Of a stretch of DNA of 60,692 nucleotides, positions 3,923-54,406 are shown piece by piece. The stretch comes from Ilumatobacteraceae bacterium (lineage in GTDB: Bacteria > Actinomycetota > Acidimicrobiia > Acidimicrobiales > Iamiaceae). Made by a program: the position numbers and the translations under genes. Below the pieces are notes generated by a model. That model ran no database searches, had not been told where the DNA came from, and saw only the letters and a list, made by a program, of their open reading frames with translations. Within the stretch, counting starts at the first letter, position 1. Every line of letters begins with the position of its first letter. The stretch spans positions 1-60,692 of the forward strand of contig JAOBWH010000060.1 of assembly GCA_025463265.1 (NCBI GenBank), read 5' to 3'.

Positions 3923-4377
3923 GCCGTGACCTCGAGGTCGTCGTACATGCCGCCCATGAAGTGGCCGGACATGTTGCACACGACCGAGTACATCCCCGGC
4001 TCCAGGTCGAGGGGCAGGTCTCGCGAGGTGCCCGGCTCGCCCGGTTCAAGCACGCCGACCGTGATGTCCTCGATCTCGTCCTCATCGATGGTCACGTCGT
4101 CCGCCCGCAGCGGCAGCGGACCATCGGCGGACCGCACCACGATCAGCTCGTGGGCCACCGGGCCCTTGTTGACGACCCGCAGCACCATCGGCCCCGAACG
4201 CACCCGGTGGGTCGAGAGGCGGATGCTGAAGTCGCGCTCGACGACCCGCACCACCGCGCCCTCGTTCGCCTCCAGACGGTCCGGTGACGAGCACCCGGGC
4301 AGCAGCACCGCCGCAGCCAGGGCGGCAGCCAGGATCGACCCGGTCAGGCCCCCGTGCTCGGCTCGCGCGCTCCCCAT
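3919..4377 (-). CDS. Cupredoxin-like lipoprotein
   Basis: 152 residues from ATG 4377. The N-terminus is a lipoprotein signal (hydrophobic AAALAAAVLL then PGCSS). The rest is a plastocyanin/cupredoxin-like beta sandwich: a loop His in PVAHELIVV and a C-terminal cluster with VVCNMSGHFMGGMYD supply the His, Cys, His and Met expected of a type 1 copper site. Length fits small azurin/plastocyanin-type proteins plus an anchor. It probably acts as an extracellular electron carrier or copper-sensing protein. It is coupled by a 4-bp overlap to the GGDEF-EAL gene downstream and is divergent from the RsbW-type gene. Confidence 0.8.
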   Translation of the reverse strand: MGSARAEHGGLTGSILAAALAAAVLLPGCSSPDRLEANEGAVVRVVERDFSIRLSTHRVRSGPMVLRVVNKGPVAHELIVVRSADGPLPLRADDVTIDEDEIEDITVGVLEPGEPGTSRDLPLDLEPGMYSVVCNMSGHFMGGMYDDLEVTA

Positions 4378-4470: not shown

Positions 4471-4896
4471 GTGATGTCCGTCGAGCTCACCCTGCCCAGG
4501 GACAACGTCGCCCCACGAGCCGCGAGGAGGTGGGTGGCCGAGCGCCTCACCCCCTTCGGTCTGGAGGACGCGATGATGCAGGGGATCCTGTTGGCGGTGA
4601 GCGAGCTGGTGACCAACGTGGTCGACCACACCGACTCGGATCCCATCATCTGCCTGCAGGTGGACCCAGGGGTCGTGGAGGTCCGGGTGGCCGACACGAG
4701 CCAGAAGGCCGCGGCGGTCCGCACCCGGGACCCCGACGAGCCCGGCGGTTGGGGGCTGATGCTCGTCGAGCAGGTCGCGGACCGGTGGGGAACCATCGTC
4801 GACGGTGGCACCAAGATCGTGTGGTTCGCCATCGACGTCGACGGCCCGTCACCGGGACAGCCCCACCCCCGGTCCCCTGACCGCAGGCCGGTCTAG
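4471..4896 (+). CDS. RsbW-type anti-sigma factor serine kinase (HATPase_c_2)
   Basis: 141 residues. GTG 4471 is preceded by AAGGA at a 7-base distance; ATG 4474 is possible. It has the small GHKL fold of anti-sigma kinases: N-box SELVTNVVDHT at about residue 45 and a G-box region GGWGLMLVEQVADRW at about 90. The family phosphorylates STAS antagonists and binds sigma factors when the antagonist is phosphorylated. The neighbouring convergent gene is a STAS protein, so the two are a likely cognate pair. The stop codon shares a CTAG with that gene's stop. No sigma factor gene lies nearby. Confidence 0.9.
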   Translation: MMSVELTLPRDNVAPRAARRWVAERLTPFGLEDAMMQGILLAVSELVTNVVDHTDSDPIICLQVDPGVVEVRVADTSQKAAAVRTRDPDEPGGWGLMLVEQVADRWGTIVDGGTKIVWFAIDVDGPSPGQPHPRSPDRRPV

Positions 4897-5231
4897 CCGG
4901 GGTGGATCTCGAGCGTCTCGGTCAGGCCCGTCATCTCGAGCAGCTGCTGCACGCACGGCGACGGAGCGCGCAGCGCGAACGAGATCCCTTGGCCTTCGAT
5001 GGCCTGGTGCAGGCGGATGAACATCCCGATCCCGCTCGAGTCGCAGAATGTCACCGCGCTGGTGTCGAGCCAGACCTGCTGGTCATCGGGCTGCTGCTCG
5101 GCGAGGACCCGGTCGGCGATGGGCTGGGCCACCGCAGCGTCGATCTCACCGGACAGGTGGACGGTGAGCTCGTGGCCCGAGCGGTCCAGGGCGATGTGCT
5201 CGCCTGGCAGATCGGTCGTCGGTTCCGTCAT
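4893..5231 (-). CDS. STAS-domain anti-sigma factor antagonist
   Basis: 112 residues, a single STAS domain. The phosphorylatable serine is in TFCDSSGIGMF (about residues 62-72), the usual SpoIIAA/RsbV motif. It is transcribed in the same direction as the PP2C phosphatase gene, 94 bp downstream of it, and converges on the RsbW-type gene. Phosphatase, antagonist and kinase thus form a complete partner-switching set: the phosphatase should dephosphorylate this protein, which then draws the kinase off its sigma factor. The target sigma factor is not in the window. Confidence 0.92.
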   Translation of the reverse strand: MTEPTTDLPGEHIALDRSGHELTVHLSGEIDAAVAQPIADRVLAEQQPDDQQVWLDTSAVTFCDSSGIGMFIRLHQAIEGQGISFALRAPSPCVQQLLEMTGLTETLEIHPG

Positions 5232-5325
5232 CGCCCAAGCCCTCCCAGGGGTCGTCCGGCACGAACGTACCCGGCGTCGTCGCTATGCAGAACCGGCGTC
5301 CGAGGAACCCGCTCGCACACCGCCG

Positions 5326-8025
5326 TCATCGCGGCGACCGGTCCACATCACCCTCGCCCGACGCGTGGATCAACAAGACCGCGACGTCGTCGTTCGTCGG
5401 TCGCGCCGGCCCGCCGTCCCGGCGCACCGAGTCGATGAGGTGGTCCAGGCTGGGGCCCAGATCGCTGAGGTCGAGCTGCGCGAGGTGGCCGGCGAGACGG
5501 CCGATGCTCTCCACTACCGGCTCCCCTCGGCGTTCGATGAGCCCGTCGGTGTAGGTGAGCAGGGCCGTTCCCGGAGGGAACGGCACGTAGACCAGGTCGT
5601 GCGGGAGGACGTTGAGCCCGATCATCGGATGCTGGTTCTCGTTGAGCGGTTGGATGCGGCCGTCCGGTTGGCGCAGGAGCGGCCAGGGGTGGCCGGCGCT
5701 CACGTACCCGAGCCGACCGGCCGCTGGGTCGATGTGCAGCAGCAGCGCCGTGGCGTAGATCTCATCGGGCCCGCTCAGCATCGAGTTCGCATCGGCGAGC
5801 ACGTCTCGGGGCGGGGTGCCGGCTCGGATCAGCCCGGCGAGCAGGTTCTGGATCTGGGCCATCGCCGCGACGGCCTCGACCCCGTGGCCCACGACGTCGC
5901 CGATGACGGCGACGACGCTCCCGTCGCCGAGCGGCGTGGCCTCGTACCAGTCTCCGCCCATCCCCACGGCGGATGCCGCAGGCTCGTAGCGCGCCAGGAG
6001 GTCGACACCGTCCACCTCCGGAAGCGGGGCCAGCAGGCGGCGCTGCATCGAGGTGACGACGGCGTGCTCGGCCTCGTAGAGCCGCACCCGTTCGAGCGTC
6101 TGACCGGCCACGTCGCACAAGGTCGCGACCCTGGACCGGAACCGCCGGTCGAAGGCCATGGGTGCCGACCACGCCAGCGCGACCGCGCCCACGACGGTCC
6201 CGTCGCTGTGGTGCAGGGGGATCACCGCCGTCGCCTCGAGCCCTGCGGCCTCGGCAGCCGCTGCGGCCTCGGGGAAGTGCGTCCGGTAGGCGCCGAGGTC
6301 CCGGAGCCAGATCGTGCGGTTCTCGCGCACCGCGGTGCTGAGCGGCAGGTCGAGATCGAGCGAGATGTGGTCGAAGCGCCGGGCGACGTCGGGAGGGAGC
6401 TCGCTCGGCAGCGCAGCCACCAGGACGGCGTGGTCGCCCTCGAGGATCCGCACGTTCGCCACGGCGGCGTGGAGGACCTCGTTGGCGTGCCGGCGGACGA
6501 GCTGGGAGACCTCGGCGGTGGTCCGGGCCGCCGCCATCTCCGCACCGAGCGCCGCCATCGAGGTGGTGTGCCCGGCCAGCTGCGATCGGACGATGGCCTG
6601 GCCGCACAGGCGGGTGAGGGTCTCGACGGTGTTGAGGTCCTCGTCGTCGAACGGCCTCGGGTCGTCCCACTCCAGGATCAAGACGCCCATGGGGTGGTGC
6701 AGGTCGTCGTAGAGGGGTGACACCACCCGTGCTCCGACCGGGCCTCGTTCGACTGCGTCGCGCAGGACCGTGTCGGCGCGCTGGAGCGCCTCGGCGACAT
6801 CGGCGGCGTCGTCGAGCACCAGCACGTCGTCGTGGTGCCCGAACATCTGGAGGCTTCGGGCGTCGCGTATCAGGCCGATCGCGCTGCGCTGGGCTTCGAG
6901 GACCTGAGGTGCCTCGTCCATGATGACCTCGAGGACCTCCTGCTCGGTCGTCGATGCGGCGAGGCGCCGGCCCAAGCGCGCAAGGACGGCGTCGGTCTGT
7001 GCGGTCCGCGCCCGTTCCTGCCGGAGCCGGCGGTTGTCGAGCGTGGCGGCGATGCGCGCCGCGATCACCTGGGCGAGCGCCACGTCCTCACCGGTGAAGT
7101 CGCGGTGATCGTGGGTCATCACGAACTGCATCGCGCCGTACGCTCGGCTGCGCTTGGTCAGCGGCACGGTGATGGCGCTGCGCAGGGCGAGGTCCTCGAC
7201 GATCTTGGCCTGGTCCGGGGGCAGGTCCGCAGCCGCGATGGCGCGCTCGTCGATGTGGGGGTGGAACTCCGGGAGGTTCGTGCGGATCACCGCCGCCACG
7301 CCCGATTCGGCGTCGGGGTCGAACGGGTAGCGAGCGTGGAGCTCCCTCGCGTACCGCACCATGGTGGGGTCGCGGTGCGCGATCTCGACCACGGGAACGG
7401 TGTCTCGCGGGCCGTCGATCACGTGCAGGCCGCACCAGTCCGCGAACCGGGGCACGACGGTCGCGGTCACGGCGCGCATGAGGTCCTGGAGACCTTCCGC
7501 GTTCTCGAGCGCCAGGTTCACGGCGCTGACGAGCTCGAGCCGCTCCCGCTGCAGGCGCTCGCGCGACAGTGCTGCGACCGCCAGCTCGCTCAGGCGGTCG
7601 CGCTCGAGGTCCGACTCGGTGCGAGCGGAGATGTCGCAGCAGCACCCGACCGTCCCGGTCACGGTTCCGTCGTCGTCGATGGTGACCCGACCGGAGCCCT
7701 CGATCCAGCGCGTGCCGCCGTCGGGCAGCTTCACCCGGTGCGTGAGCTGGTAGGAGCCTCGCCGGGACAGCGCATCCTCGAGCGTCGACCGGACCTCTGC
7801 CCAGTCATCGGGGTGCACGAGCGCCTTCCACGCGTCGTAGGTCCCGTCGAACGTGCCCGGCTCCAAGCCGAACAGGCGCTCCATCTGCTGATCCCACGTG
7901 GTCGTGCCCGAGGCCAGGTCCCACCGCCACGTCCCGAAGCCGGCAGCGTCGAGCGCGAGGCGGAGGTGCTCGGCGAGCAGCAGGGTCTCGGAGGGTGCAC
8001 CGGTGACGGCCTCGTCGTCGCTCAT
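5326..8025 (-). CDS. PAS-GAF-GAF-GAF-SpoIIE PP2C phosphatase (RsbU-like)
   Basis: 899 residues from ATG 8025; no strong ribosome site, and a frame extends 30 codons upstream. Order: PAS_3-type PAS (about 12-135), three GAF-like domains (about 165-330, 345-490, 495-650), then the SpoIIE/PP2C domain (about 660-895) with metal-binding aspartates in GGDWYE and IGDVVGHG. Such multisensor phosphatases dephosphorylate STAS antagonists in response to bound ligands. The STAS gene directly downstream on the same strand is the obvious substrate. The PAS domain contains VGCCCDIS, three adjacent cysteines, which is unusual and could be redox-active. Confidence 0.93.
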   Translation of the reverse strand: MSDDEAVTGAPSETLLLAEHLRLALDAAGFGTWRWDLASGTTTWDQQMERLFGLEPGTFDGTYDAWKALVHPDDWAEVRSTLEDALSRRGSYQLTHRVKLPDGGTRWIEGSGRVTIDDDGTVTGTVGCCCDISARTESDLERDRLSELAVAALSRERLQRERLELVSAVNLALENAEGLQDLMRAVTATVVPRFADWCGLHVIDGPRDTVPVVEIAHRDPTMVRYARELHARYPFDPDAESGVAAVIRTNLPEFHPHIDERAIAAADLPPDQAKIVEDLALRSAITVPLTKRSRAYGAMQFVMTHDHRDFTGEDVALAQVIAARIAATLDNRRLRQERARTAQTDAVLARLGRRLAASTTEQEVLEVIMDEAPQVLEAQRSAIGLIRDARSLQMFGHHDDVLVLDDAADVAEALQRADTVLRDAVERGPVGARVVSPLYDDLHHPMGVLILEWDDPRPFDDEDLNTVETLTRLCGQAIVRSQLAGHTTSMAALGAEMAAARTTAEVSQLVRRHANEVLHAAVANVRILEGDHAVLVAALPSELPPDVARRFDHISLDLDLPLSTAVRENRTIWLRDLGAYRTHFPEAAAAAEAAGLEATAVIPLHHSDGTVVGAVALAWSAPMAFDRRFRSRVATLCDVAGQTLERVRLYEAEHAVVTSMQRRLLAPLPEVDGVDLLARYEPAASAVGMGGDWYEATPLGDGSVVAVIGDVVGHGVEAVAAMAQIQNLLAGLIRAGTPPRDVLADANSMLSGPDEIYATALLLHIDPAAGRLGYVSAGHPWPLLRQPDGRIQPLNENQHPMIGLNVLPHDLVYVPFPPGTALLTYTDGLIERRGEPVVESIGRLAGHLAQLDLSDLGPSLDHLIDSVRRDGGPARPTNDDVAVLLIHASGEGDVDRSPR

Positions 8026-8175
8026 CACGCGCACTCTACGAGCGTCCGCAACCCCCGGGGGCGGGGCCCGGTTCCCGCACCGGCGACGGTCCCGGGTCAT
8101 CGACGGTCGCGACATCCCCGGAGATGTTCAAGTTCGGCATGTCCGACGCCGATGTGCCTGGTGGGAGGGATGGAC

Positions 8176-17469: not shown

Positions 17470-17573
17470 GCGGCAGCCTGACAGGGCCGCACCCTCCGCA
17501 GGGCATCGGGTGTCCCGAGCAGACGAGCGGACGTTCACGGTTCGATCATGGCGGTGGGTGTTGGGTGGTCTCC

Positions 17574-19272: not shown

Positions 19273-19650
19273 TCAGAGCTCGAACCAGACGACCTTGCCG
19301 CCGTCGGGGTCATCGTCGAGGCCGATCCTGGCGGCGAGCCGGTGGACGAGCGCGATGCCTCGACCGCCCTCGGACCGTGGGTCGACCTCGCTCGGCGGGC
19401 CGTCGATCAGCTTCCGGAAGGCGACGGTGGCTGCGGCGCCGTCGTGGACCTCGACCCGGAAGGGAGGCCCGGGCACGACCTGCACCCGTATCTCGGTGTC
19501 AGCGTGACGGACGACGTTGGTGACCAGTTCGCTCGTCAGAAGCGCGACGACCTGCGGATCGAGCGCTTCGGGGGCGAGGGCCACGGCGTGCTGGCGCGCG
19601 ACGCGGACGCTCGAGTGATCGGCGGGCAGGGTGAGCGGTTCAGGACGCAC
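19273..19650 (-). CDS. RsbW-type anti-sigma kinase, second copy
   Basis: 125 residues. GHKL motifs SELVTNVVRHAD (N-box, about 40) and EGGRGIALVHRLAARIG (G-box, about 92). Similar in size to the first kinase at 4471 but only moderately alike, so not a recent duplicate. It faces away from the STAS-GAF-ANTAR gene with about 215 bp between starts, making that STAS domain a candidate partner. Confidence 0.9.
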   Translation of the reverse strand: MRPEPLTLPADHSSVRVARQHAVALAPEALDPQVVALLTSELVTNVVRHADTEIRVQVVPGPPFRVEVHDGAAATVAFRKLIDGPPSEVDPRSEGGRGIALVHRLAARIGLDDDPDGGKVVWFEL

Positions 19651-19754
19651 GGCTACCGCTGGTGCGATGGGGTTCTCGAGCGGCCGGAGTACGGGGGTTG
19701 GTTGCCATGGTCGAGGAGATCCTCACCCAAACTCGATTCATCTCTCAACTCAGG

Positions 19755-19834
19755 CCTCGCTCGGCTCCTCCGGCACGTCGATTAGAGTCGAACCGTCTCC
19801 GGTTGGCCGTCGGTCCCAGACCTCGCTCGGCTCC
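19755..19834. repeat. 14-bp direct repeat and small hairpin upstream of the STAS-GAF-ANTAR gene
   Basis: CCTCGCTCGGCTCC occurs at 19755-19768 and 19821-19834. Between them GAACCG-TCTC-CGGTT can form a short hairpin near 19790. The layout, 30-110 bases before the start codon, could be a regulator site or leader structure. Function unknown. Confidence 0.4.
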
Positions 19835-19865
19835 CTTCCTGCGGCTCCCGCTTGGAGGCGTCGTC

Positions 19866-20924
19866 GTGCCCATGCCACCGGAAATGTCGTTCGCGACCGT
19901 TCACCAGGGGGGCGACCACTCCCTCATCACCGTCACGGGTGAGGTGGACCACAGGACGGCCCCCCACCTGTCGACCGCAGCCGGTGACCTGCTCGCCGGC
20001 GGGCAGCGCCATCTGCGGTTCGATCTCAGCGGTGTGACCTTCTTCGACGCTGGAGGGGTGCGGGCGCTCCAGGTCGCCGTCCGGCAGGCTCGCCGGGTGG
20101 ACGGCACGGTCACGGTCGTCGCGCCGCCCCCGTTCGTCGTCCAGGTCCTCGAGGTGTTGGGACTGGGCGGCCTGGTCGAGCTTGGGAGCGGTGCGCCAGC
20201 GCCCACGGTGGCGGACCGTCGCCTGGCGATCCTCGCCCGCCTGACCGATCTCCCGTCGGACGACGCTGCGATCCGCAGCCTCGGCGAGATCTGCGCGGAG
20301 GTGACCGAGATGACCGGCGCAGGGATCATGTTGATGGCCGGGGGTGCTCCGCAAGCGTCGGTGGGGGTGACGAACGCGGCGGGCGAGCTCATCGAGCGGC
20401 TGCAGTACGAGCTCGGCGAGGGCCCGTGCGTCGACGCCCACGCTCTGGACCGGCCGGTCCTCGCGCCCGACCTCGCGGCCCCTCGCGAGTTGCGTTGGCC
20501 GGCGTTTCGCGGTCCGGTCCTCGATGCAGGGGTGCGAGCGATCTTCGGGTTCCCGATGCGGGTCGGTGGCGTGAGGCTCGGCGCGCTGAACCTGCACCGC
20601 GACACGGCCGGGCCGCTCACCGACGACCAACACGCCAATGCCCTGGTGGTCGCCTCCATCGCCGCCGAGGTGATCCTCGCCCTGCAGGCCGAAGCCCCGC
20701 CGGGGCGCCTCTCGGCGTCGCTCGAAGCGGAGACCGAGAGCCAGCTCGTCGTCCACCAAGCAACCGGGAGGATCGCCGTGCAGCTCGACGTACCGATCGC
20801 CGAGGCCATGGTCCGCCTGCGGGCCCACGCCTTCGCGACCGATCGGTCGATCCGCGACATCGCGGCCGAGGTGGTCGACGGCACCCTCCGATTCGACCGC
20901 ACGGACCCCGGCGAGCCCTCGTGA
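19866..20924 (+). CDS. STAS-GAF-ANTAR fusion protein
   Basis: 352 residues. GTG 19866 is chosen for GGAGG at 7 bases; ATG 19872 follows. Order: STAS (about 8-105) with a DAGGVRAL in place of the usual DSSGxxxL phosphosite, GAF (about 120-280) with the short EGPCVDAH motif typical of GAF-ANTAR proteins, ANTAR (about 290-345) with ATGRIAVQLDVPIAEAMVRL. It joins a partner-switching module to an RNA-binding antiterminator. The replaced phosphoserine (Ala-Gly for Ser-Ser) suggests the STAS part may be locked in one state. Confidence 0.9.
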   Translation: MPMPPEMSFATVHQGGDHSLITVTGEVDHRTAPHLSTAAGDLLAGGQRHLRFDLSGVTFFDAGGVRALQVAVRQARRVDGTVTVVAPPPFVVQVLEVLGLGGLVELGSGAPAPTVADRRLAILARLTDLPSDDAAIRSLGEICAEVTEMTGAGIMLMAGGAPQASVGVTNAAGELIERLQYELGEGPCVDAHALDRPVLAPDLAAPRELRWPAFRGPVLDAGVRAIFGFPMRVGGVRLGALNLHRDTAGPLTDDQHANALVVASIAAEVILALQAEAPPGRLSASLEAETESQLVVHQATGRIAVQLDVPIAEAMVRLRAHAFATDRSIRDIAAEVVDGTLRFDRTDPGEPS

Positions 20925-21015
20925 CCGAGCGGACGGTCCGGATGCTCCCCCGCCCTCTACGCTGGAAATCGGTGCCGGTCGCGCATCGCGAGGCGCCCCG
21001 AACATCGGACACCAC

Positions 21016-21747
21016 ATGACCAGAGAAGCGATCCTCGCCCAGACGCTGGTGGATCTGGCCGACACCCTCGTCGACGACTTCGACGTGGTCGACGTCCTCA
21101 CCTTGTTGGCCGACCGCTGCGTGAGCGTCCTCGACGCCTCCGCAGCGGGGATCATGCTCGCCGGCGCCGACGGGAGGCTCCACCCGATCGCGGCGTCCAG
21201 CGAAGCCATGCACCTGCTCGAGCTCTTCGAATCCCAAGCGCAAGAAGGCCCGTGCCTCGACTGCTACCTGACCGGAACGGCCGTCGCAGCGCCCGACCTC
21301 ACCGGCGACACCCCGTGGCCTGGGTTCAGCACCCGCGCTGTCGAAGCCGGGTTCCTCTCCGCAACCGCACTGCCCATGCGGCGACGGGGAACGATCATCG
21401 GGGCGCTCAACTTCTTCCGCAGCGTCACCGGCCCGATCAACGACTCCGACTTCGCTGCTGCCCAAGCCCTCGCCGACATCGCCACCATCGCCCTGATGCA
21501 GCACCGCATCGCCCTCGAGGCGCAGATGCTCAACGAACAGCTCGAGACCGCGCTGCACAGCCGCATCGGCATCGAACAGGCCAAGGGCATGATCGTCGAA
21601 CGGTTCCAGATCGACCTCGAGGAGGCGTTCGAACGGCTCCGCAGCTACGCCCGCAGCCACCGCATCGGCATCTCCCAGGTCGCCGGCGACATCGCAAGCG
21701 GCGAACTCCCCATCGGCGATCTCTACGAGCAGAAGGACACTCGATGA
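21016..21747 (+). CDS. GAF-ANTAR transcription antiterminator
   Basis: 243 residues. GAF domain (about 20-165) with EGPCLDCYLTG, then ANTAR (about 175-240) with RIGIEQAKGMIVERFQ. Family members sense a ligand through GAF and bind twin-hexaloop hairpins in leader RNAs. The two cysteines of CLDC could hold a metal or be redox-active. Its stop overlaps the ferredoxin start by 4 bp, so both are made together. Very close relative of the GAF-ANTAR gene at 34696. Confidence 0.93.
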   Translation: MTREAILAQTLVDLADTLVDDFDVVDVLTLLADRCVSVLDASAAGIMLAGADGRLHPIAASSEAMHLLELFESQAQEGPCLDCYLTGTAVAAPDLTGDTPWPGFSTRAVEAGFLSATALPMRRRGTIIGALNFFRSVTGPINDSDFAAAQALADIATIALMQHRIALEAQMLNEQLETALHSRIGIEQAKGMIVERFQIDLEEAFERLRSYARSHRIGISQVAGDIASGELPIGDLYEQKDTR

Positions 21748-22098: not shown

Positions 22099-23994
22099 TC
22101 AGGTGCGCTGGTAGTACTCGTTGCTGGCCGCAAGGAACGCGATCAGCTGCTGTTCGCCCTGGGTGCTCGAGCCGAGGGTCGAGACCCAGGTGGTGATCTC
22201 ACCGTCGGTGGGTTGACGGTCGAGGAAGCGCAGGAACTGGTCGCGGACGATGTTGCGGCGAGCTTCGGTCGATGCGAGGAACTGCAGCGCGACCTGACCG
22301 CGCTCGGCACCGTTGTTGAGCTTCTTGGTCCAGTAGGCCTGGCCGCTGGGGTCAGGTTTGCGGCCGAGCACGTCGGCGTAGGCCGCGACCATGTACTGGG
22401 CGTTGGTGCCGCCGGCCTTGGTGAAGTACTCGTTCGACCCGAAGAGCTGCGCACGGAATTTCACCAGGCTCTTGCCGCTGTGGAGGCTGTTGATCCAGTA
22501 GGTGCGCCCGGAGGGATCGGCCTGGCGGTCGAGGTAGTCGACGAAGGTGCGGTCGACGTCGAGGCCGCGGTAGAGGTCGGTGTCCATCAGCCCCGTGATG
22601 ATCTTGGGCCTCGTGGTGGTGCTTCCGGCGAGGTTGTTGCGGATGGTGAGGCGCTCGCTGTCTCCTGCGATGCGGAACTGCAGGTCGCGGATGACCCGGT
22701 GCCCGAATCCTTCGTAGATGTTCGTCCAGGCGCCGTGGACGCTGATCGCGCCGGTGTTGTTCATGATGATGGAGCCGTAGGCGGGGTCGACGGGGTTCAC
22801 CGTGCTGGTACCGCCCGCCACGATGTTCTCGGTCCAGGCCCCGGTCGGGATGGTGATGTCGAGCACGTCGTTGTCCTGCTCGTCGCCGAAGACGGTGACG
22901 CTCTGGTGGACGGCACGGACGTCGATGAGGGCCCGGTCCTTCTCGGCGCCGACGGCGTAGTCCAGCTCGATCCGGTCGAAGTTGGCCGGAAGGAGCTGCT
23001 GGCCGGTCCGATTGAGGCTGTTCGTGATCATCGCGGTGTTGGCGTTCGCGCCCGGCCGGACACGGGTGGTGGTGTCGCTGCCGTCGAGCTCGGTGCGATG
23101 CCGGTCCGTGCTTCCGCTGCCGGTGAGGGTGCGGCCGCCCGATCGGAGGCTGAGCCGGTCCGTCACGAAGTTGTCCGCACCGCCCGCCAGCTTGATGACG
23201 TCGGTGTTGGAGTTCGATTCGAACGTGTCCTTGGCGGAGCTCCCGTTGTAGGTGTTGGTGCCCGTCCCGCCAACCGCATAGGTGGGCTTGAACGCGCTTG
23301 CGGTGATCGTGTCGTCGCCATCCCCGGCGTAGAAGAAGATGCTGGTGAGGTTCGAGCCGTCGGTGACCCCGCTGGCCGCCAACGTGTCGTCGCCGGTGTA
23401 GGACTCGACCTGAACGGACTCGACCGAGGCCACGGCGTCGAGGGCTGGGCCGCCGGAGGTGCTGGTGACGACGGAGACGTCGGCGTTCATCGAGCTCACG
23501 GAGATGGTCTCCTCTTCGAGGCTCCCCCACACCCGCAGCAGATCGGTTCCCGCACCCAGCGTCAGCGCCGTGTCGTGCGCGCCGCCGGATTCGAGGAGCA
23601 GGGTGTCGGCGCCGGGGCCGAGGTCGAGGGTGTCGGCGTTGTCGGACTCGACCACGGTGTCGGCACCGTCGCCGAGGGCCACGAACAGCTTCGGGTTGGC
23701 GCTGAACACCGTGTTGTTGAGGTCGCGGCCCATCACCGCTTGGTTGCCGATGTCGCCGTTCACGGTGACCTTGCTCACGGAGGAGCACAGCAGCGACGGC
23801 TGCGCCACGGTGCCGTTCACGCTCACGTGTCCCAGCGAGCACCCGATCCCGACGCTCACGTTGCCGGTGGCGGTCACCGTGACCGTCGTACCCGACGTGG
23901 TCGCCGCAACCGCGGCGCTCGCCGGATTCGCCAGCGGCACCAACAGCGCCGCCGATGCGACGGCAACCGCCGCGAAGAGATGTCGTGCCCGCAT
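22099..23994 (-). CDS. Secreted RTX-like protein with C-terminal DUF4214 domains
   Basis: 631 residues. Clear signal peptide (MRARHLFAAVAVASAALL, cleavage after NPASA). A long region of Gly/Asp-rich repeats (GDGADTV, GPGADTLLL, GDGDDTI) resembling calcium-binding RTX turns covers about 90-300. Residues about 490-630 hold two DUF4214 repeats (FVDYLDRQADPSGRTYW, YADVLGRKPDPSGQAYW). DUF4214 occurs in many exported actinobacterial and proteobacterial surface proteins and is often tied to S-layer or matrix proteins; its function is not known. A truncated paralog lies at 45400. Confidence 0.9.
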   Translation of the reverse strand: MRARHLFAAVAVASAALLVPLANPASAAVAATTSGTTVTVTATGNVSVGIGCSLGHVSVNGTVAQPSLLCSSVSKVTVNGDIGNQAVMGRDLNNTVFSANPKLFVALGDGADTVVESDNADTLDLGPGADTLLLESGGAHDTALTLGAGTDLLRVWGSLEEETISVSSMNADVSVVTSTSGGPALDAVASVESVQVESYTGDDTLAASGVTDGSNLTSIFFYAGDGDDTITASAFKPTYAVGGTGTNTYNGSSAKDTFESNSNTDVIKLAGGADNFVTDRLSLRSGGRTLTGSGSTDRHRTELDGSDTTTRVRPGANANTAMITNSLNRTGQQLLPANFDRIELDYAVGAEKDRALIDVRAVHQSVTVFGDEQDNDVLDITIPTGAWTENIVAGGTSTVNPVDPAYGSIIMNNTGAISVHGAWTNIYEGFGHRVIRDLQFRIAGDSERLTIRNNLAGSTTTRPKIITGLMDTDLYRGLDVDRTFVDYLDRQADPSGRTYWINSLHSGKSLVKFRAQLFGSNEYFTKAGGTNAQYMVAAYADVLGRKPDPSGQAYWTKKLNNGAERGQVALQFLASTEARRNIVRDQFLRFLDRQPTDGEITTWVSTLGSSTQGEQQLIAFLAASNEYYQRT

Positions 23995-47570: not shown

Positions 47571-49568
47571 ATGCCTCTCAAACCCGCTCTGCGCGGCGCG
47601 CTCATCGTTGTTGCGTCCGTCTCCGTCTCCGCCGTGCTCCTGCCGGCCTCGCCGGCCAGCGCGGTCTCGCAGAAGTTCCCGGTGTCGGCGGTGATCTCCG
47701 TCGCCACCACCGGCAACACCGGCGACGGCGGATCACTCGGCTCCTCGCCGAGCAGCAAGGGGCGGTTCGTCGCCTTCACCTCCTCGGCGGGCAACCTCGT
47801 CGCCGGCGACACCAACGGGGTCAAAGATGTGTTCGTGCGTGACACGCTCGCCGGCACGACGCAGCTGGTGAGCGTGTCCACCGCTGGAGCCCGGGGCAAC
47901 GGCGACAGCGACCAGCCATCGATCAGCTTCGACGGCCGGTACGTGGCGTTCCGCTCGGCCGCGGCCAACCTGGTCGCCGGCGACACCAACGCCAAGAACG
48001 ACGTGTTCCTCCGTGACCTCCGCAACAGCACCACGATCCGGGTGAGCGTGAAGCACAACGGTGGCGGACAAACGACCGGGGGTGACGCCAGCTATCCGAA
48101 CGTGTCCGACGACGGCACCATGGTGTCGTTCCTGTCGAGCTCCCCCAACGTCGTGGACTTCGACCTCAACAACCTGCCGGACGTGTTCGTCCGCGACGTC
48201 GTCGGCAGCGGCACCACCGACATCGCCACCGTGACCTCGAGCGAAGTCCAGCTCGCCCTCGGAGCGAACGCTCCGGCGATGAGCGGAAACGGTCGCTTCG
48301 TGGTGTTCGACTCGGACACGGCCCAGGTGGGCGTCGACACGAACGGCACCCGCGACGTCTTCCTGCGGGATCGGACCCTCGGCACGACCGAGCGGGTCAG
48401 CATCGCCAGCAACGGCGACCCGAGCGATGGCGCCTCCTACTACTCGCGCGTCAGCGACAACGGCCGCTACGTGGCGTTCCAGTCCATCGCCACCGACCTC
48501 ACCCCCGCCGTCGACGCGCCCGGTTTCGACGATGTGTTCCGTCGCGATCGCACGCTGGCCACCACGGAGCTGGTCAGCCGGACCGACGCCGATCAGCCCG
48601 GCAACAAGGGAGGCACCGGACCCTCCATCTCCGCCGACGGCACCAAGGTGGCGTTCGCCTCCCAGTCCACCAACCTCATCACGAGCGACACGAACGCCGT
48701 GACCGACGCGTTCGTTCGCGACCTCTCGGCGCAGACCACCACTCGAAGCAGCGTGAAGACGAACGGCGGCCAGCTCGATGGCCTCAGCTACGGCCCCGAG
48801 CTCAGCCCCGAGGGAGGTGCCGCGAGCTTCACGACCCTGTCGACCCAAGGGTTCAACCAGGACGTCAACGCCACCCTCGATGTGTACCTGCGAGGCGTTC
48901 AGGAGGTCGGCCCGTTCGGCGCCACCAATGCACTGGTCCAGCAGGCGGCGCACGACTTCACCGGCGCCTACCTCGACGGCGCGACCCTCGGCGGGCTCGA
49001 CGCCAAGATCCAGTACGGCCTCGCCAGCCCGGCGTCGACCCTCAACGCCTACGCGCACGGCTCCTTCGCCAAGGATCGTGCACCGGTCATGCGGCTCTAC
49101 TGGGCGTTCTTCAAGCGGGTCCCCGACGCCGGTGGCCTGAACTACTGGTCTGGCAGGCACGCGAACGGCATGAGCATGAAGGCCATCGCCAACGGCTTCG
49201 CCAAGAGCTCGGAGTTCAAGACCAACTTCGGCGCCGGCACCGACACGCAGTTCATCACGCTCGTCTACACCAACGTCCTCGAGCGTCAGCCCGACCAGGC
49301 CGGGCTCACCCACTGGATCAACAAGATGAAGACCGGCACGACCCGTGGCGAGATGATGATCAACTTCTCCGAGTCACCTGAGGGGATCCGCCGGATGCGC
49401 GGCGAGATCGACACCGAGCTCGTGATCCTCGGGATGTTGCACCGGGTGCCGACCAAGAGCGAGGTCACGAGCTACGCCAACGCCCTCGAGCTCAACGGCG
49501 GTCAGGTCACCGAGGTGCTCATCGACGCCATCCTCACCGGACCCGAGTACGCCTCGCTCATCAACTGA
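47571..49568 (+). CDS. Secreted beta-propeller protein with DUF4214 C-terminus
   Basis: 665 residues. Signal peptide (AVLLPASPASA). Residues about 45-440 contain about seven repeats of a 55-residue unit with SxDGRYVAF, NLVAGDTN and DVFVRD, a TolB/WD40-like propeller. Residues about 490-660 hold DUF4214 units (FFKRVPDAGGLNYW, VLERQPDQAGLTHW). Third DUF4214 protein here. Probably a large extracellular adhesin or binding protein. Hairpin terminator follows. Confidence 0.92.
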   Translation: MPLKPALRGALIVVASVSVSAVLLPASPASAVSQKFPVSAVISVATTGNTGDGGSLGSSPSSKGRFVAFTSSAGNLVAGDTNGVKDVFVRDTLAGTTQLVSVSTAGARGNGDSDQPSISFDGRYVAFRSAAANLVAGDTNAKNDVFLRDLRNSTTIRVSVKHNGGGQTTGGDASYPNVSDDGTMVSFLSSSPNVVDFDLNNLPDVFVRDVVGSGTTDIATVTSSEVQLALGANAPAMSGNGRFVVFDSDTAQVGVDTNGTRDVFLRDRTLGTTERVSIASNGDPSDGASYYSRVSDNGRYVAFQSIATDLTPAVDAPGFDDVFRRDRTLATTELVSRTDADQPGNKGGTGPSISADGTKVAFASQSTNLITSDTNAVTDAFVRDLSAQTTTRSSVKTNGGQLDGLSYGPELSPEGGAASFTTLSTQGFNQDVNATLDVYLRGVQEVGPFGATNALVQQAAHDFTGAYLDGATLGGLDAKIQYGLASPASTLNAYAHGSFAKDRAPVMRLYWAFFKRVPDAGGLNYWSGRHANGMSMKAIANGFAKSSEFKTNFGAGTDTQFITLVYTNVLERQPDQAGLTHWINKMKTGTTRGEMMINFSESPEGIRRMRGEIDTELVILGMLHRVPTKSEVTSYANALELNGGQVTEVLIDAILTGPEYASLIN

Positions 49569-49583
49569 CCCGGAGCGCCGGGT
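49568..49583 (+). terminator. Hairpin terminator after the propeller gene
   Basis: ACCCGG-AGCG-CCGGGT, 6-bp stem, starting at the last base of the stop codon. Confidence 0.5.
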
Positions 49584-50096
49584 TCCCGTCGGTGCGCGCC
49601 ACCTCTCGGGCTGGTCTCGTCGGACGGCCGACAGAGTCCGCGAGCCCCCGTGGTCAGGCCAGCGCCGCCACGAGCGGTGACCTGGCGTTCAACGCCAAGA
49701 GCGGCGACGCTGGCATCCAGGTCGAGATCGCAGCGGCATCGGGCGGGACCATGGCAACGATCGACCAGTCCATCGAGATCGCCGGCACCATCGCCGCTCC
49801 TGCCCTCAGCTGATCGTGACGGCGGCAGCTCCGTGACACGCTGGCTCGAGTTGGAGCGGGTGGGCGAGCTCGTCGAGGCCATCTCCGCCGCCCCCTGAAG
49901 CTGCGAGAGGCGTGACGATCAGGTCACGCCGACCACCACCGGTGCAACGAGCAGTCGGTCTTGCGCATCTAGGCGGGATGCGACGACCTGAGCTCTGCTG
50001 CCGCACCTCTGATCGGCCGTCGCCTTTGGCGAGGGACTGTGTTAGGCCGTCATCACGAGGTGGGTTCCTCCATCGCGGTACCAGGAAGACCCTGCG
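49584..50096. other. Intergenic stretch, no convincing gene
   Basis: About 510 bases. A 73-codon frame (49592-49813) reads like a soluble domain fragment (GDLAFNAKSGDAGIQ) with no ribosome site; a second short frame ends near 49898. An 8-bp inverted repeat (49909-49930) is the main structure. Likely remnants. No tRNA seen. Confidence 0.45.
49909..49930. promoter_or_regulatory. Inverted repeat GGCGTGAC-N6-GTCACGCC
   Basis: Perfect 8-bp arms, about 170 bases upstream of the heme oxygenase start. Operator or hairpin; similar to CRP/FNR-type dyads by symmetry only. Confidence 0.35.
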
Positions 50097-50705
50097 ATGG
50101 CTCGGCGGTTCCTTCGGGAGGCAACGGTGGTGGCCCACCAGTCGGCGGAGTCGGCTGTCGACCTCGGCGTCGGGTTGACCGAGGCGTCCTACATCCGCGT
50201 CGTCGGGCTGTTCCACGGGTTGTGGAGACCCACCTTCGACGTCCTCGCTCGTTGGTCGATCGGTGTCGAGGGCGTTTGGCATGTCGAGGATCGAGCGACC
50301 CTCGCTCGCGACGACCTGGTTGCTCTGGGGATGAGCGCCACCGCCATCGAGGCACTGCCGCGATGTGAGGTCGAGCCACCCCTGCCCGCCCACGATGGGA
50401 TGGCGACGGCCATGGGATACGCGTATGTGCTGGAGGGGTCTTCGCTGGGCGCGGCGACGATCGCCCGTCGCGTCGAAGACGAGCTTCCGCTGGTGCCCGC
50501 GTCGACGTTCCTCGCACAAGACCCGGGTCGTTGGGCGGCGTTCGCCGCCAGCATCGACCGACAGCGTCTCAGTTCCGTGGAGCTGGATCAGGCCGCCGTC
50601 GCAGCGAACCGGCTCTTCGCTGCCTTCGAGGCCATCGCGGTGGCCAGCCGGGCCACCGGAAGTGCAGGAGGTGTCTCGGCTCGCTCGGGTCTCGAGGAAC
50701 GCTGA
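50097..50705 (+). CDS. bphO: Biliverdin-producing heme oxygenase
   Basis: 202 residues from ATG 50097. Helical; the axial His is in EATVVAHQSAE (about residue 14) and the distal MGYAYVLEGSSLG glycine turn near 107 is the family signature. It opens heme to biliverdin, the chromophore of the bacteriophytochrome encoded 163 bp downstream. Start GTG 50127 would drop the His. An ordinary length for bacterial HO. This adjacency is the usual arrangement in bacteriophytochrome loci. Confidence 0.88.
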   Translation: MARRFLREATVVAHQSAESAVDLGVGLTEASYIRVVGLFHGLWRPTFDVLARWSIGVEGVWHVEDRATLARDDLVALGMSATAIEALPRCEVEPPLPAHDGMATAMGYAYVLEGSSLGAATIARRVEDELPLVPASTFLAQDPGRWAAFAASIDRQRLSSVELDQAAVAANRLFAAFEAIAVASRATGSAGGVSARSGLEER

Positions 50706-50868
50706 CTCATCTCGCTGCGAGACGCCCTGGATCGGGTCGGTCGACCGACGCCCGTGCCCTTCGCCGGGCCGCGGCGCCATCACCCGTGAGGGTGAGTAGG
50801 GTCCCTGGCGTCGGTCTGTCCGCTGCGTCGCAGCGTCTCCCCGAGTTCTTCGAACGCTGGGGGTACCT

Positions 50869-53100
50869 GTGGATCCGATCGACGCTGTGGTCCCGGGCGA
50901 GGACCTCGATCTCGCTGCGCTGCTCGACGGTTGTGCCACGGAGCCGATCCATGCGCCAGGGGCGGTGCAGCCCCATGGTGCGCTGCTGGCCACGGACGCT
51001 GGCGGGATGATCCGGGTGGCCTCGGCCAACTGCGAGACCATCGTGGGCTTCGATGCGGCAACTGCGGTCGGCTGTGCCCTGGCCGACATCGTGGGCGACG
51101 AGTCCGCGGCGCGCCTCGCCGAGGCTGACCCGGGCGATGTGGTGGAGGTCGACCTGCTCGCTGGTCCTTGCGAAGCGACCGTCCACCGTGGCGGCGGGTT
51201 CGATCTGATCGAGATCGAACCGGCGGTCGAACCGGCTCGTGACGATCAGGCCCGGCTGCAGCGGGCGCTGCTGCGGTTCCACGGTGCGCCGGACTCGATG
51301 GCGTTGCTGGCCCAGGCGGCGGCGGTCGTCCAGGACCTCACCGGCTTCGACCGCGTCATGGTGTACCGGTTCGACGCCGAGTGGAACGGAGAGGTCGTCG
51401 TCGAGGTGGCGCGCCCCGACCTCGAACCGTTCCTCGGCCTCCGCTACCCGGCCAGCGACATCCCGCCCCAGGCCCGGGCCCTGTACAGCCGGACGCGCCT
51501 GCGGCTCATCCCGGACGCAACCGCCACGCCCAGCCCCCTGCTCGTGGCGGTGACGACGGACCTCGGACAACTCGATCTCTCTGCCGTGTCGATCCGGGCG
51601 GTCTCGCCGGTGCACCTCCGCTACCTCACGAACATGGGGGTCCGGGCGTCCATGTCCGTGGCGATCCACATCCGCGGCGCGCTCTGGGGCCTCATCGCCT
51701 GCCACCACGCCACCGAGCCGCTCCATCCGTCGGTCCGCGTGCGCAACGCCGTCGACCTCGTCGGCCAGACCACCTCCACCGTCCTCGGCGCGCTCCTCGC
51801 AGCAGAGTCCGCCACCACCCACCGCCTCCTCCTCGACGGCCTGGACGCCATCACCGAGCCCCTGCGGCTCGAAGCAGGATCCGATCCCGCCGCAACGATG
51901 GCCGCGACCGGAGACCTGCTGCCGGCGCTCCTCGGCTCCCACGGCGCCGCCGTCGTCAACGGGAACCGGACCCTCACGATCGGGCGCTGTCCGCCACAGG
52001 CGGTCGTCGATGGGTTCATCGCCCTCGCGTCGGCGCGCGGTCGGGACCTCCTCGCATCCGCGCAGCTCGGAGCCCTCGACGCGCACTGGGCCGCCGACGC
52101 CGACACTGCGGCCGGTGCCCTCGCGGTGCGGGCGGGCACCGGGGATCAGTGGCTCATCTGGTTCCGGCCCGAGACCGCACGGGTGATCCGCTGGGGTGGC
52201 GACCCGAACGGCAAGGAGGCGACGGTCAGCCCCCAGGGCGACCACCAGCTCGACCCGAGGGCCTCGTTCGCCGAGTACCTCGAGCACGTCAGAGGCACCA
52301 GCACTCCGTGGAGCGGCGAGCAGCAGGCGGTCGCCCGACTGGCAGCGGCGCGCCTCGGTGCCATGGACGTGCTCGGCGCGCAGCGCGAGGCCACCATCGC
52401 CTCGACGGTGCAGCGGGCCGTCATGCTCGAGACGTTCCCGCCGATCCCCGGCGTCGACGGAGCCGCCCGGTATGCCCCGTGCACCCGCGACCCGATCGGC
52501 GGCGACTGGTACGACGTCTTCGTTCCCGATGACGGCAGACCCGTCATCGCCCTCGGCGACGTCGCCGGCCACGGACTGAGCGCAGCCGCCACCATGGCGC
52601 AGCTGCGCCACGCACTGCGTGCCTACGTCATCCGCGAGGACAGTCCCGCCGAAGCGATGACCCAGCTCAACGAGCTCATGCGAACGCTGCTGCCAGGCGA
52701 CATGGCGACCGCAATGATCGTCTCGCTCGACCCCGTCGCCCGCTCGGCCGACATCGTCAGCGCCGGGCACCTACCGGCCGTCGTCGTCAGTCCCGACGGC
52801 GCCGTGCTCGTCGAGGGCGCCCACCACGACCGGGCGCTCGGGGCCGCACGAAACGCGACCTACCGGTCGACCCGTGTCGACCTGCCGCCCGGTCACACCC
52901 TCGTGCTCTACACCGACGGCCTGATCGAGCAGCGCACCTCCACCCTCGACGCCCGCCTGGGCGTCCTTCTCGACGTCGCCGCATCCGGAGCCCACCTTCC
53001 AACCGGCGATCTGTGCGAGCACCTCATGGCCGAGCTCGTCCGTGGGTCCGACCACCACGACGACGTGACCGCCCTGGCGATCAGGCTCGCCGGACCCTGA
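50869..53100 (+). CDS. Bacteriophytochrome fused to SpoIIE-type PP2C phosphatase
   Basis: 743 residues; GTG 50869 with GGGGG upstream. N-terminal PAS with biliverdin Cys22 in DGCATEPIHAPGAVQPHG, phytochrome GAF (about 130-310) with RYPASDIPPQARALY, PHY (about 325-495) whose tongue ends in DPRASFAEYLE, then SpoIIE/PP2C (about 530-740) with GGDWYDVF and LGDVAGHG. So red/far-red light should control phosphatase activity, feeding STAS-based partner switching. Most bacteriophytochromes are histidine kinases, so a PP2C output is uncommon. The two STAS proteins in the window are candidate substrates. Confidence 0.95.
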   Translation: MDPIDAVVPGEDLDLAALLDGCATEPIHAPGAVQPHGALLATDAGGMIRVASANCETIVGFDAATAVGCALADIVGDESAARLAEADPGDVVEVDLLAGPCEATVHRGGGFDLIEIEPAVEPARDDQARLQRALLRFHGAPDSMALLAQAAAVVQDLTGFDRVMVYRFDAEWNGEVVVEVARPDLEPFLGLRYPASDIPPQARALYSRTRLRLIPDATATPSPLLVAVTTDLGQLDLSAVSIRAVSPVHLRYLTNMGVRASMSVAIHIRGALWGLIACHHATEPLHPSVRVRNAVDLVGQTTSTVLGALLAAESATTHRLLLDGLDAITEPLRLEAGSDPAATMAATGDLLPALLGSHGAAVVNGNRTLTIGRCPPQAVVDGFIALASARGRDLLASAQLGALDAHWAADADTAAGALAVRAGTGDQWLIWFRPETARVIRWGGDPNGKEATVSPQGDHQLDPRASFAEYLEHVRGTSTPWSGEQQAVARLAAARLGAMDVLGAQREATIASTVQRAVMLETFPPIPGVDGAARYAPCTRDPIGGDWYDVFVPDDGRPVIALGDVAGHGLSAAATMAQLRHALRAYVIREDSPAEAMTQLNELMRTLLPGDMATAMIVSLDPVARSADIVSAGHLPAVVVSPDGAVLVEGAHHDRALGAARNATYRSTRVDLPPGHTLVLYTDGLIEQRTSTLDARLGVLLDVAASGAHLPTGDLCEHLMAELVRGSDHHDDVTALAIRLAGP

Positions 53101-53170
53101 CCCCTGGAAGCCGTCAACTCCCGCTTCTCTCTCCAAAGCACCGCTCCGCTTGGGCGGCGAAAGCCGCGTC

Positions 53171-54406
53171 CTACCGGGGTGGGAGGGACACGAAGAGGTC
53201 GAACCGGGCAGAACGTGGGTCGATGAGCTCGCGCCGGGCTCCCATCGCTTGGGCCATGGTTCGTGCGAGGGCCAGTCCGACGCCGGTGCCACCGTTCCCG
53301 GAGACGTGGCGGTTGAAGACCGCATGCTCGATGCCGGGAGCGATGCCTGGACCTTCATCGGACACGCTGATGACGAGGTGATTCCCGGCACGGCGGGCTC
53401 CGACGTGCACCACGCCGTCGCCGTGGCGCAGCGCGTTCTCCATCAGCACGTTCAGTATCTCGGTGACCGGCTGCACGGGCAACGGCTCTTTGTCGGTGCT
53501 GACATCGACATCGATGTCGACTCGACGCTCGGCTCGGGCGAGCAGCGGTTCCCATCGCTGCCGCAGCAGGTCGGTGATCGCACGGAGCGGGGACGACTTC
53601 GTCTCGGTGGTGGTGTTCGACCGGGCGAGGCTCAGCAGTTCGTTGATGGTTTCGTCGAGGCGCTCGACCTCAGCGAACGCATCGGCGAGGGCGGGGCCCA
53701 TCTCGTCGGGACCGCCCATGGCCGCTTCCTCCAGCCGAACTCGGAGTGCCGTGAGCGGCGTTCGGAGCTGGTGCGAGGCGTTCGAGGAGAACTCGCGCTC
53801 ACGGCCGATGAGCTCGGCGATCCGGGCTCCGCTCGAGGTGAGGGCGTCGCCGACCGCATCGACCTCGGGGATCCCGGCCGGTTCGACGTGCACCGAGAAG
53901 TCACCTCCGCCCAGCCGGTGGGAGGCGGCGACGAGATCATCCAGGGGACGCCCGAGGCGGTTGGACTCTCGAACTCCGAGCACGACGGCGGTGCCGATGC
54001 CGATGGCGGCGAGGCCAGCGACGACCAGCCATGCCTGCACGGCGCGGTTGTCGGCGTCTGTTGCGGATGCGACGACGGTGATGTGCACGCCGGTCTCGGT
54101 GCTGACCCTGGCCTCGATGGTGCGTCCGCTCGGACGCGTTCCGACTCGAGTCGTCCGGCCCGAGGTGTCGCGAACCACGACGTAGCGGTCCGTGCGGGCG
54201 GCGGCTCGGATCGCATCGAACGGCACGGCGCCCCCTTTCTCGCTTGGCTCGCTCACGGCGAACCCGATGGCGTCGGCCTCCCGGTCGAGTGACCGCACTG
54301 CTTGCTCCCGGGCGAGGTGCGTGGCGATGATCCCGAGTGGCACACCGAGCACCGTGACGCCCACCACGATGACCGCGAGGAAGGCGCGGAGCAGACGGCG
54401 ACGCAC
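53171..54406 (-). CDS. Two-component sensor histidine kinase
   Basis: 411 residues; GTG start 1 bp after the regulator's stop. Two membrane helices (about 8-30 and 125-145) around an extracytoplasmic loop, HAMP (about 150-200), HisKA with SSNASHQLRTPLTALR (about 215) and HATPase with TGVGLALARTM. Typical OmpR-type pair with the gene at 54408. Ligand unknown. The phospho-His is in the Q-L-R-T-P form seen in actinobacteria. Confidence 0.94.
   Translation of the reverse strand: MRRRLLRAFLAVIVVGVTVLGVPLGIIATHLAREQAVRSLDREADAIGFAVSEPSEKGGAVPFDAIRAAARTDRYVVVRDTSGRTTRVGTRPSGRTIEARVSTETGVHITVVASATDADNRAVQAWLVVAGLAAIGIGTAVVLGVRESNRLGRPLDDLVAASHRLGGGDFSVHVEPAGIPEVDAVGDALTSSGARIAELIGREREFSSNASHQLRTPLTALRVRLEEAAMGGPDEMGPALADAFAEVERLDETINELLSLARSNTTTETKSSPLRAITDLLRQRWEPLLARAERRVDIDVDVSTDKEPLPVQPVTEILNVLMENALRHGDGVVHVGARRAGNHLVISVSDEGPGIAPGIEHAVFNRHVSGNGGTGVGLALARTMAQAMGARRELIDPRSARFDLFVSLPPR

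Follow-up and report, generated by a model that had tools for sequence, protein, structure and literature searches.

A bacteriophytochrome fused to a SpoIIE/PPM phosphatase in an Ilumatobacteraceae bacterium: a probable light input to partner switching

What would a bacteriophytochrome control when a SpoIIE-type phosphatase, rather than a kinase, is fused to its photosensor? This question is raised by the window analysed here, a stretch of 60,692 nucleotides of DNA (contig JAOBWH010000060.1, assembly GCA_025463265.1) from an Ilumatobacteraceae bacterium. The initial annotation had described a heme oxygenase gene and a PAS-GAF-PHY photosensor with Cys22 fused to such a phosphatase, from which it proposed that red light tunes a general stress response through partner switching. 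The open reading frames, Pfam domains and residues behind the first part of this description were confirmed (Table 1). The longer frame, bphP-ppm, starts with GTG and encodes 743 amino acids, with bphO upstream on the same strand across a gap of 163 bp. The codon-position GC content is of the coding type in both frames (GC3 of 0.78 for bphO and 0.88 for the fusion), and a consensus search of positions 49560-53300 returned no promoter or terminator.

Table 1. Features of the window, with positions counted from its first nucleotide.
Feature	Positions	Strand	Basis
Separate RsbW(+)/STAS(-)/PAS-GAF3-SpoIIE(-) module, candidate target at 4893	4471..8115	.	Pfam, ORFs
STAS-GAF-ANTAR protein, unlikely substrate	19662..20924	+	D-A-G-G site; RsbW-like 19273-19650(-) adjoins
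bphO, BphO-type heme oxygenase, 202 aa	50097..50705	+	Pfam Heme_oxygenase, 27.4 bits (cut-off 23)
bphP-ppm, bacteriophytochrome-SpoIIE/PPM phosphatase fusion	50869..53100	+	Pfam PAS_2, GAF, PHY and SpoIIE, all above cut-off
Cys22 codon, expected biliverdin attachment site	50932..50934	+	Cys in 40/41 fusions, gap in 1
PAS_2 domain, residues 22-119	50932..51225	+	Pfam
GAF domain, residues 145-287; bilin pocket D197, H249, Y252, H279-H280	51301..51729	+	Pfam and alignment
PHY domain, residues 335-490; PRxSF tongue motif, R464/S466	51871..52338	+	Pfam and alignment
Predicted signal helix PHY-PPM, residues 483-518	52315..52422	+	AlphaFold; R464-to-D546 spacing
SpoIIE/PPM Pfam match, residues 554-740	52528..53088	+	D564, D683, D731/D732 present; D546 just before the match

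In terms of domains, the SpoIIE part of the fusion (PF07228) scores 153.5 bits against a cut-off of 25 and is one of nine SpoIIE matches in the genome, whose sole PHY match lies in this same protein. A sequence search of the PDB returned a solved BphP chain at 292.9 bits, and the 50 structural matches listed for the predicted model, such as 6ptq_A (TMt 0.88) and PadC (5llw), are all phytochromes or phytochrome chimaeras. The protein is not a member of the NCBIfam equivalog bacphytchrmBphP (NF041576), because its 260.8 bits, obtained by aligning residues 19-490 to positions 10-500 of the 622 in the profile, fall far under the curated cut-off of 1040. For the bphO product, the NCBIfam and PDB sequence searches were both without hit; its H14, which we take to be the proximal histidine of heme oxygenases, is conserved in 32 of 33 aligned rows, and the protein would, judging from its family, produce biliverdin.

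Further comparison was made by aligning the residues of 41 fusions, the window's own included and the same-order relative G269 standing outside these rows. In the photosensor, Y166, D197, Y206, R212, H249, Y252, S261, H279, R464 and S466 are invariant (41/41), as are D546, D549, D564, G567, H568, D683, D731 and D732 in the phosphatase, and Cys22 and H280 are each kept in 40 rows; the roles given to these residues, in the bilin pocket or as metal-binding aspartates, are those that we assume from general knowledge. Position 36 is a histidine in the window's protein and an arginine in 24 of the 41 rows, and none of the 40 relatives in this set is more than 42% identical to that protein. Taken together, these data support a complete biliverdin photosensor with chromophore supply, fused to a SpoIIE/PPM phosphatase.

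The spacing between the two modules is constant. R464 lies in the tongue of PHY and D546 is the first metal Asp of PPM; the distance from one to the other is 82 residues in 42 of 42 fusions, that is, in the 41 aligned rows, which form 18 clusters at 60% identity, and in G269, which was measured separately. The control for this figure is provided by other intervals of the same proteins, there being no clean one outside the fusion class: most vary (C22-Y166 from 144 to 183, H280-R464 from 174 to 196, D564-D683 from 116 to 155 and D683-D732 from 42 to 50), and three short intervals show little or no variation, Y166-D197 and H249-H280 being constant in 41/41 rows and D546-D564 in 40/41. Linker lengths of histidine kinases were also tried and set aside as too crude a control, since 11 of the 40 rows showed no motif, nine gave a value of 41 or 193 that is probably false, and 20 fell at 66, 67, 69, 71 or 87. 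The AlphaFold monomer (mean pLDDT 88.1, from 40 aligned sequences with L017 and G269 left out) has a single helix leading from PHY into the phosphatase (block pLDDT 87-95), and the tongue residues 441-470 are of low confidence (block pLDDT 62-69). A crossing helical or coiled-coil linker, together with a switch-mediated PPM dimer, is proposed as a general mode of phosphatase control in a passage of PMC12143880, and strong constraint on linker length is described for phytochrome cyclases in a passage of PMC9587094. From the model, and by analogy with both cases, we infer that a linker helix of fixed register would couple PHY to PPM here as well.

Fusions of this kind are already known as an effector class, bacteriophytochromes with SpoIIE/PPM output being drawn as such according to the legend of Fig. 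2 in Böhm et al. 2022 (PMC9587094), and the window's protein is a further member. At least 41 other phytochrome-SpoIIE fusions were found, a lower bound in that the best 80 of 592 relatives from a scan of GTDB genomes were examined. Among these 80, 39 loci (L009-L047) match from sensor to phosphatase, and all are labelled Actinomycetota, including Geodermatophilus, Blastococcus, Cellulomonas, Nocardioides, Frankia and Mycobacterium. The two others, G028 and G269, belong to the same order as the window's genome, G028 being the only other match that spans both modules among the matches listed for 99 genomes.

Within the class, phytochromes are rare: among 296 sampled genomes, PHY matches occur in six at any score and in four over the cut-off, namely those of the window, G028, G269 and G342. 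The first three carry the SpoIIE fusion, and in G342 a phytochrome histidine kinase gene is followed by a REC-PAS-SpoIIE gene and then by a BphO-like gene (the BphO calls in G342 and G028 come from our own profile, Pfam giving no hit in either). SpoIIE is thus the output to which all four class phytochromes point: in three it is fused to the sensor, and in one it is apparently reached via a two-component step. In the same line, an actinomycete metagenome bin (L072) encodes a REC-SpoIIE protein after a phytochrome kinase, the only SpoIIE match in the flanks of 41 non-fused phytochrome loci, and this arrangement further supports a SpoIIE phosphatase as output. The scarcity of the gene in the class could also suggest a photosensor that has degenerated, or one that senses redox state or temperature with no role for light. 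Such a reading is highly improbable: the pocket residues checked are kept in 40 to 41 of the 41 rows, a heme oxygenase gene stands upstream and the tongue motif is intact.

Regarding its origin, both sensor-module trees place the window's protein with proteobacterial phytochromes, and this placement would suit a fusion event separate from that of the other phytochrome-SpoIIE proteins. However, when the sampled SpoIIE fusions are kept together, the resulting tree exceeds the free one by 2.74 in log-likelihood (AU p 0.549), long branches were flagged, and among the loci compared the best sensor match and the best phosphatase match of the window's protein both belong to other fusions. An independent fusion is thus very unlikely, and the claim was dropped, a single fusion clade not being rejected by the AU test and the constrained tree being slightly the better one.

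The gene neighbourhoods of the relatives bear on what the phosphatase acts on. STAS, RsbW and BphO profiles were built from sequences of this analysis and run over 41 fusion loci other than the window's, with distances taken to the phytochrome; five of the 41 lack the full 1.5 kb flank on both sides. At 14 loci a STAS match is found no more than 1.5 kb from the fusion, and 13 of these have an RsbW-like match as well, the RsbW profile having drifted towards histidine kinases and its matches being counted solely beside STAS. A BphO match within 1.5 kb is likewise found at 14 of the 41 loci. Farther than 3 kb from the phytochrome, STAS matches occur at 2 loci in 346 kb of flank, compared to 14 loci in 117 kb nearby. 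This comparison inside the fusion loci is a better control than the non-fused phytochromes, none of which has a STAS match near it (0/40; Fisher p 3e-5, with kinship ignored and nearly all of them from other phyla). The latter control is weak because its phytochromes come almost wholly from other phyla; its sole member labelled Actinomycetota is L072, itself with the adjoining REC-SpoIIE gene, and L049, whose flank gave no STAS match, is absent from the comparison.

Pfam confirmed all ten neighbour domains submitted, which came from five loci and comprised five STAS and five HATPase_c_2 domains; it also confirmed both the STAS and the RsbW of G028, and the STAS of G269. In G028, a BphO-like gene, the fusion, a divergent STAS gene and an RsbW gene stand together, so that all parts of a partner-switching set but sigma are beside the phosphatase; in G269, the STAS gene is directly upstream of the fusion and has the same orientation, with 11 bp between the two matches. 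The neighbour STAS domains split into several dissimilar groups instead of forming one orthologous family, and their D-S-x-G site is kept in 12 of 16 and absent in four (L022, L034). STAS/RsbW partners seem to have been exchanged between lineages. With three sigma factors of the window's genome (C71, C7 and C102) as queries, no sigma gene was found beside the fusions of L009-L047 or L140 at E 1e-8, L158 lying outside this search.

These neighbourhoods support, at the level of gene content, a partner-switching output, and the relatives suggest that the fusion controls such a switch by light. The profile search found no STAS within 1.5 kb at the remaining 27 of the 41 loci, as would be expected if the substrate were a Ser/Thr-phosphorylated protein other than a STAS antagonist and no partner switch were involved. 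Against this unlikely alternative stand the STAS neighbours in seven of the 18 fusion clusters at 60% identity (a tally that gives G269, without comparison, a cluster to itself), and the STAS gene beside the fusion in both same-order relatives. The partner switching proposed in the initial annotation is consequently backed by the relatives and not by the immediate surroundings of the window's fusion, within 1.5 kb of which no STAS or small RsbW-type match was found.

The best explanation of the whole, to which we assign a probability of roughly 0.7, is a light-switched phytochrome-PPM phosphatase that dephosphorylates a STAS antagonist and thereby controls an RsbW partner switch. As the families and residues indicate, biliverdin made by BphO would bind Cys22 of the phytochrome, and the PAS-GAF-PHY module would be switched by red/far-red light. 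By analogy with RsbU-type phosphatases, the change in the PHY dimer would be carried by the rigid, fixed-register helix to the switch helices of a PPM dimer, and this signal would turn the phosphatase activity up or down. The active phosphatase would dephosphorylate a STAS anti-sigma antagonist at its serine, enabling that antagonist to bind an RsbW-type kinase and thereby to free the partner of the kinase. A broader proposal, for which we see the chances as even, is that red/far-red partner switches are widespread in actinobacteria, with an invariant 82-residue register, exchanged STAS/RsbW partners and, in addition, a two-component version in which a phytochrome kinase stands beside REC-SpoIIE.

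As for the target in this genome, the initial annotation had pointed to two RsbW kinases and two STAS proteins elsewhere in the window, and had named the STAS at 4893 and 19866 as substrates. Two small HATPase_c_2 (RsbW-like) frames are indeed present, at 4471-4896(+) and 19273-19650(-), as are both STAS domains, the second being the front of a STAS-GAF-ANTAR protein. This second domain, at 19866, reads D-A-G-G where SpoIIAA has D-S-S-G. In an alignment to solved SpoIIAA chains, the residue after its Asp corresponds to position 58 of 1th8_B, which we take to be the phosphoserine, and the 1tid/1til chain, presumably a non-phosphorylatable mutant, reads D-A-S-G at the same site. The protein is an unlikely substrate because an alanine stands at the phosphoserine position, and the suggestion that it is a target is not supported. 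When the genome is searched with the phytochrome-linked STAS profile, this same Ala-bearing protein nevertheless comes first, with its match at 19914 (66 bits, the next reaching 58.2); it was rejected as a likely partner since the usual phosphoserine is missing.

The first STAS frame, 4893-5231(-), has an intact D-S-S-G site and is SpoIIAA-like by sequence, and its 3' end overlaps that of the RsbW-like frame 4471-4896(+) by 4 bp. Next to it lies a second SpoIIE phosphatase of the window, with PAS-GAF3-SpoIIE architecture (5326-8115(-)), which is missing from the initial annotation. The fusion could conceivably act on this STAS and RsbW pair, red light then being a second input beside the phosphatase at 5326-8115. 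Nevertheless, the pair is located about 45 kb from the fusion and adjoins a phosphatase of its own, its STAS ranks only tenth of the twelve own-genome matches to the phytochrome-linked profile, and the genome holds 13 STAS matches. This target is therefore quite improbable, and is not supported in the form in which it had been put forward.

Given these 13 STAS matches and about ten small RsbW-type frames (by frame length, among 24 HATPase_c_2 matches in the genome), no single partner candidate was chosen. A partner search by similarity was also tried, but for the neighbour STAS and RsbW domains of the relatives it pointed to no clear equivalent among the proteins of this genome. Adjacent STAS/RsbW pairs lie on contigs C36 and C197, where no SpoIIE or Sigma70_r3 match was found.

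With respect to sigma factors, the window's fusion does not share a locus with STAS, RsbW and sigma genes, and its contig carries no sigma match. The absence of a sigma factor noted earlier thus holds for window and contig but not for the genome, which has eight Sigma70_r3 matches, seven of them over the cut-off. Among the four scanned, C71 (242.5 bits) and C102 (266.4) exceed the curated SigB/F/G cut-off of 234.35, C7 (201.9) stays below it, and C171 is of the WhiG type. The sigma gene of C71 is overlapped by a gene that resembles RsbW weakly (29.7 bits, cut-off 145), and a SpoIIE gene and two STAS genes are close by. A general stress response, as proposed earlier, is compatible with the SigB/F/G-type sigma factors of the genome, although no link between any of them and the phytochrome was found.

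If light sets the phosphatase activity, red light would act on an anti-sigma switch directly, through a single protein, which would at the same time be a ready light-controlled Ser/Thr phosphatase. Besides, with only one linker length in the class, the coupling of sensor to PPM is directly testable by residue insertion. In the literature searched, outside which most subscription papers lie, neither a published assay of a phytochrome-SpoIIE protein nor the STAS/RsbW neighbourhood and 82-residue linker regularity of the fusions was found.

Several known systems are related to this arrangement. The bacteriophytochromes with SpoIIE/PPM output of Böhm 2022 (PMC9587094) have, to the extent that the figure legend tells, the same PAS-GAF-PHY-SpoIIE/PPM layout as the window's protein. 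The phosphatases of the RsbU/RsbP/RsbZ type, as described in part of PMC12143880, are likewise PPM domains driven by N-terminal sensors via a helical linker, whereas in the window's protein the sensor is a phytochrome, and its class has one linker length throughout (42/42) with a predicted continuous helix. In the PadC diguanylate cyclases, the PHY output helix also continues into the effector under strong constraint on linker length, but that effector is a GGDEF domain and linker lengths of -7, -4, 0, +2 and +7 are given in the linker passage of PMC9587094, compared to a phosphatase and one length in the fusion class. The same type of output is served by the blue-light LOV and BLUF sensors that, according to part of PMC4844311, are joined to a SpoIIE phosphatase or a STAS domain; these sensors use flavin and blue light, while that of the window would use bilin and red/far-red light. 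In Bacillus subtilis, SigB is reported to be activated by both blue and red light, according to the abstract of PMC3019169. Finally, the counterparts of the SpoIIAA/RsbV STAS proteins and SpoIIAB/RsbW kinases, as STAS and HATPase_c_2 genes, flank the phytochrome-phosphatase fusion in 13 of the 41 relatives.

The loci L157 (in G342, a sampled genome of the same class) and L072, from other genomes, apparently represent, in two-component form, the light-to-phosphatase route of the bacteriophytochrome-SpoIIE fusion. The GAF motifs of the G342 phytochrome are divergent, PASDIP and CHH both being absent, and a BphO-like gene is also present at this locus. Beside the fusion at L034, P-S-x-A replaces the D-S-x-G motif in all three STAS domains.

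Features at the fusion-related loci and in the window
Location	Coordinates	Feature	Source or strand
L034	6405-7899	Three STAS domains and one RsbW adjoining the fusion	Nocardioides sp. SYSU D00038
L157	392-5096	Phytochrome histidine kinase adjoining REC-SpoIIE protein	G342
L072	7650-12282	Phytochrome histidine kinase adjoining REC-SpoIIE protein	
Window	1565-3979	PAS-GGDEF-EAL protein	
Window	4471-8115	RsbW / STAS / PAS-GAF3-SpoIIE module	+ / - / -
Window	17565-19202	PAS-GGDEF protein	
Window	19273-21747	RsbW-like ORF adjoining STAS-GAF-ANTAR protein, then GAF-ANTAR protein	
Window	22099-23994	631-aa protein, DUF4214 domain at C-terminal end	

Another contig of the window's genome, C197, carries a convergent STAS/RsbW pair related to the window's SpoIIE-containing module (49% identity for STAS, 44% for RsbW); a search of that contig for SpoIIE gave no match. 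Finally, the RsbW-like ORF together with the ANTAR proteins beside it could possibly form a route from RsbW to an antiterminator without sigma factor; in the STAS-GAF-ANTAR protein, the phosphoserine position of STAS is occupied by Ala.
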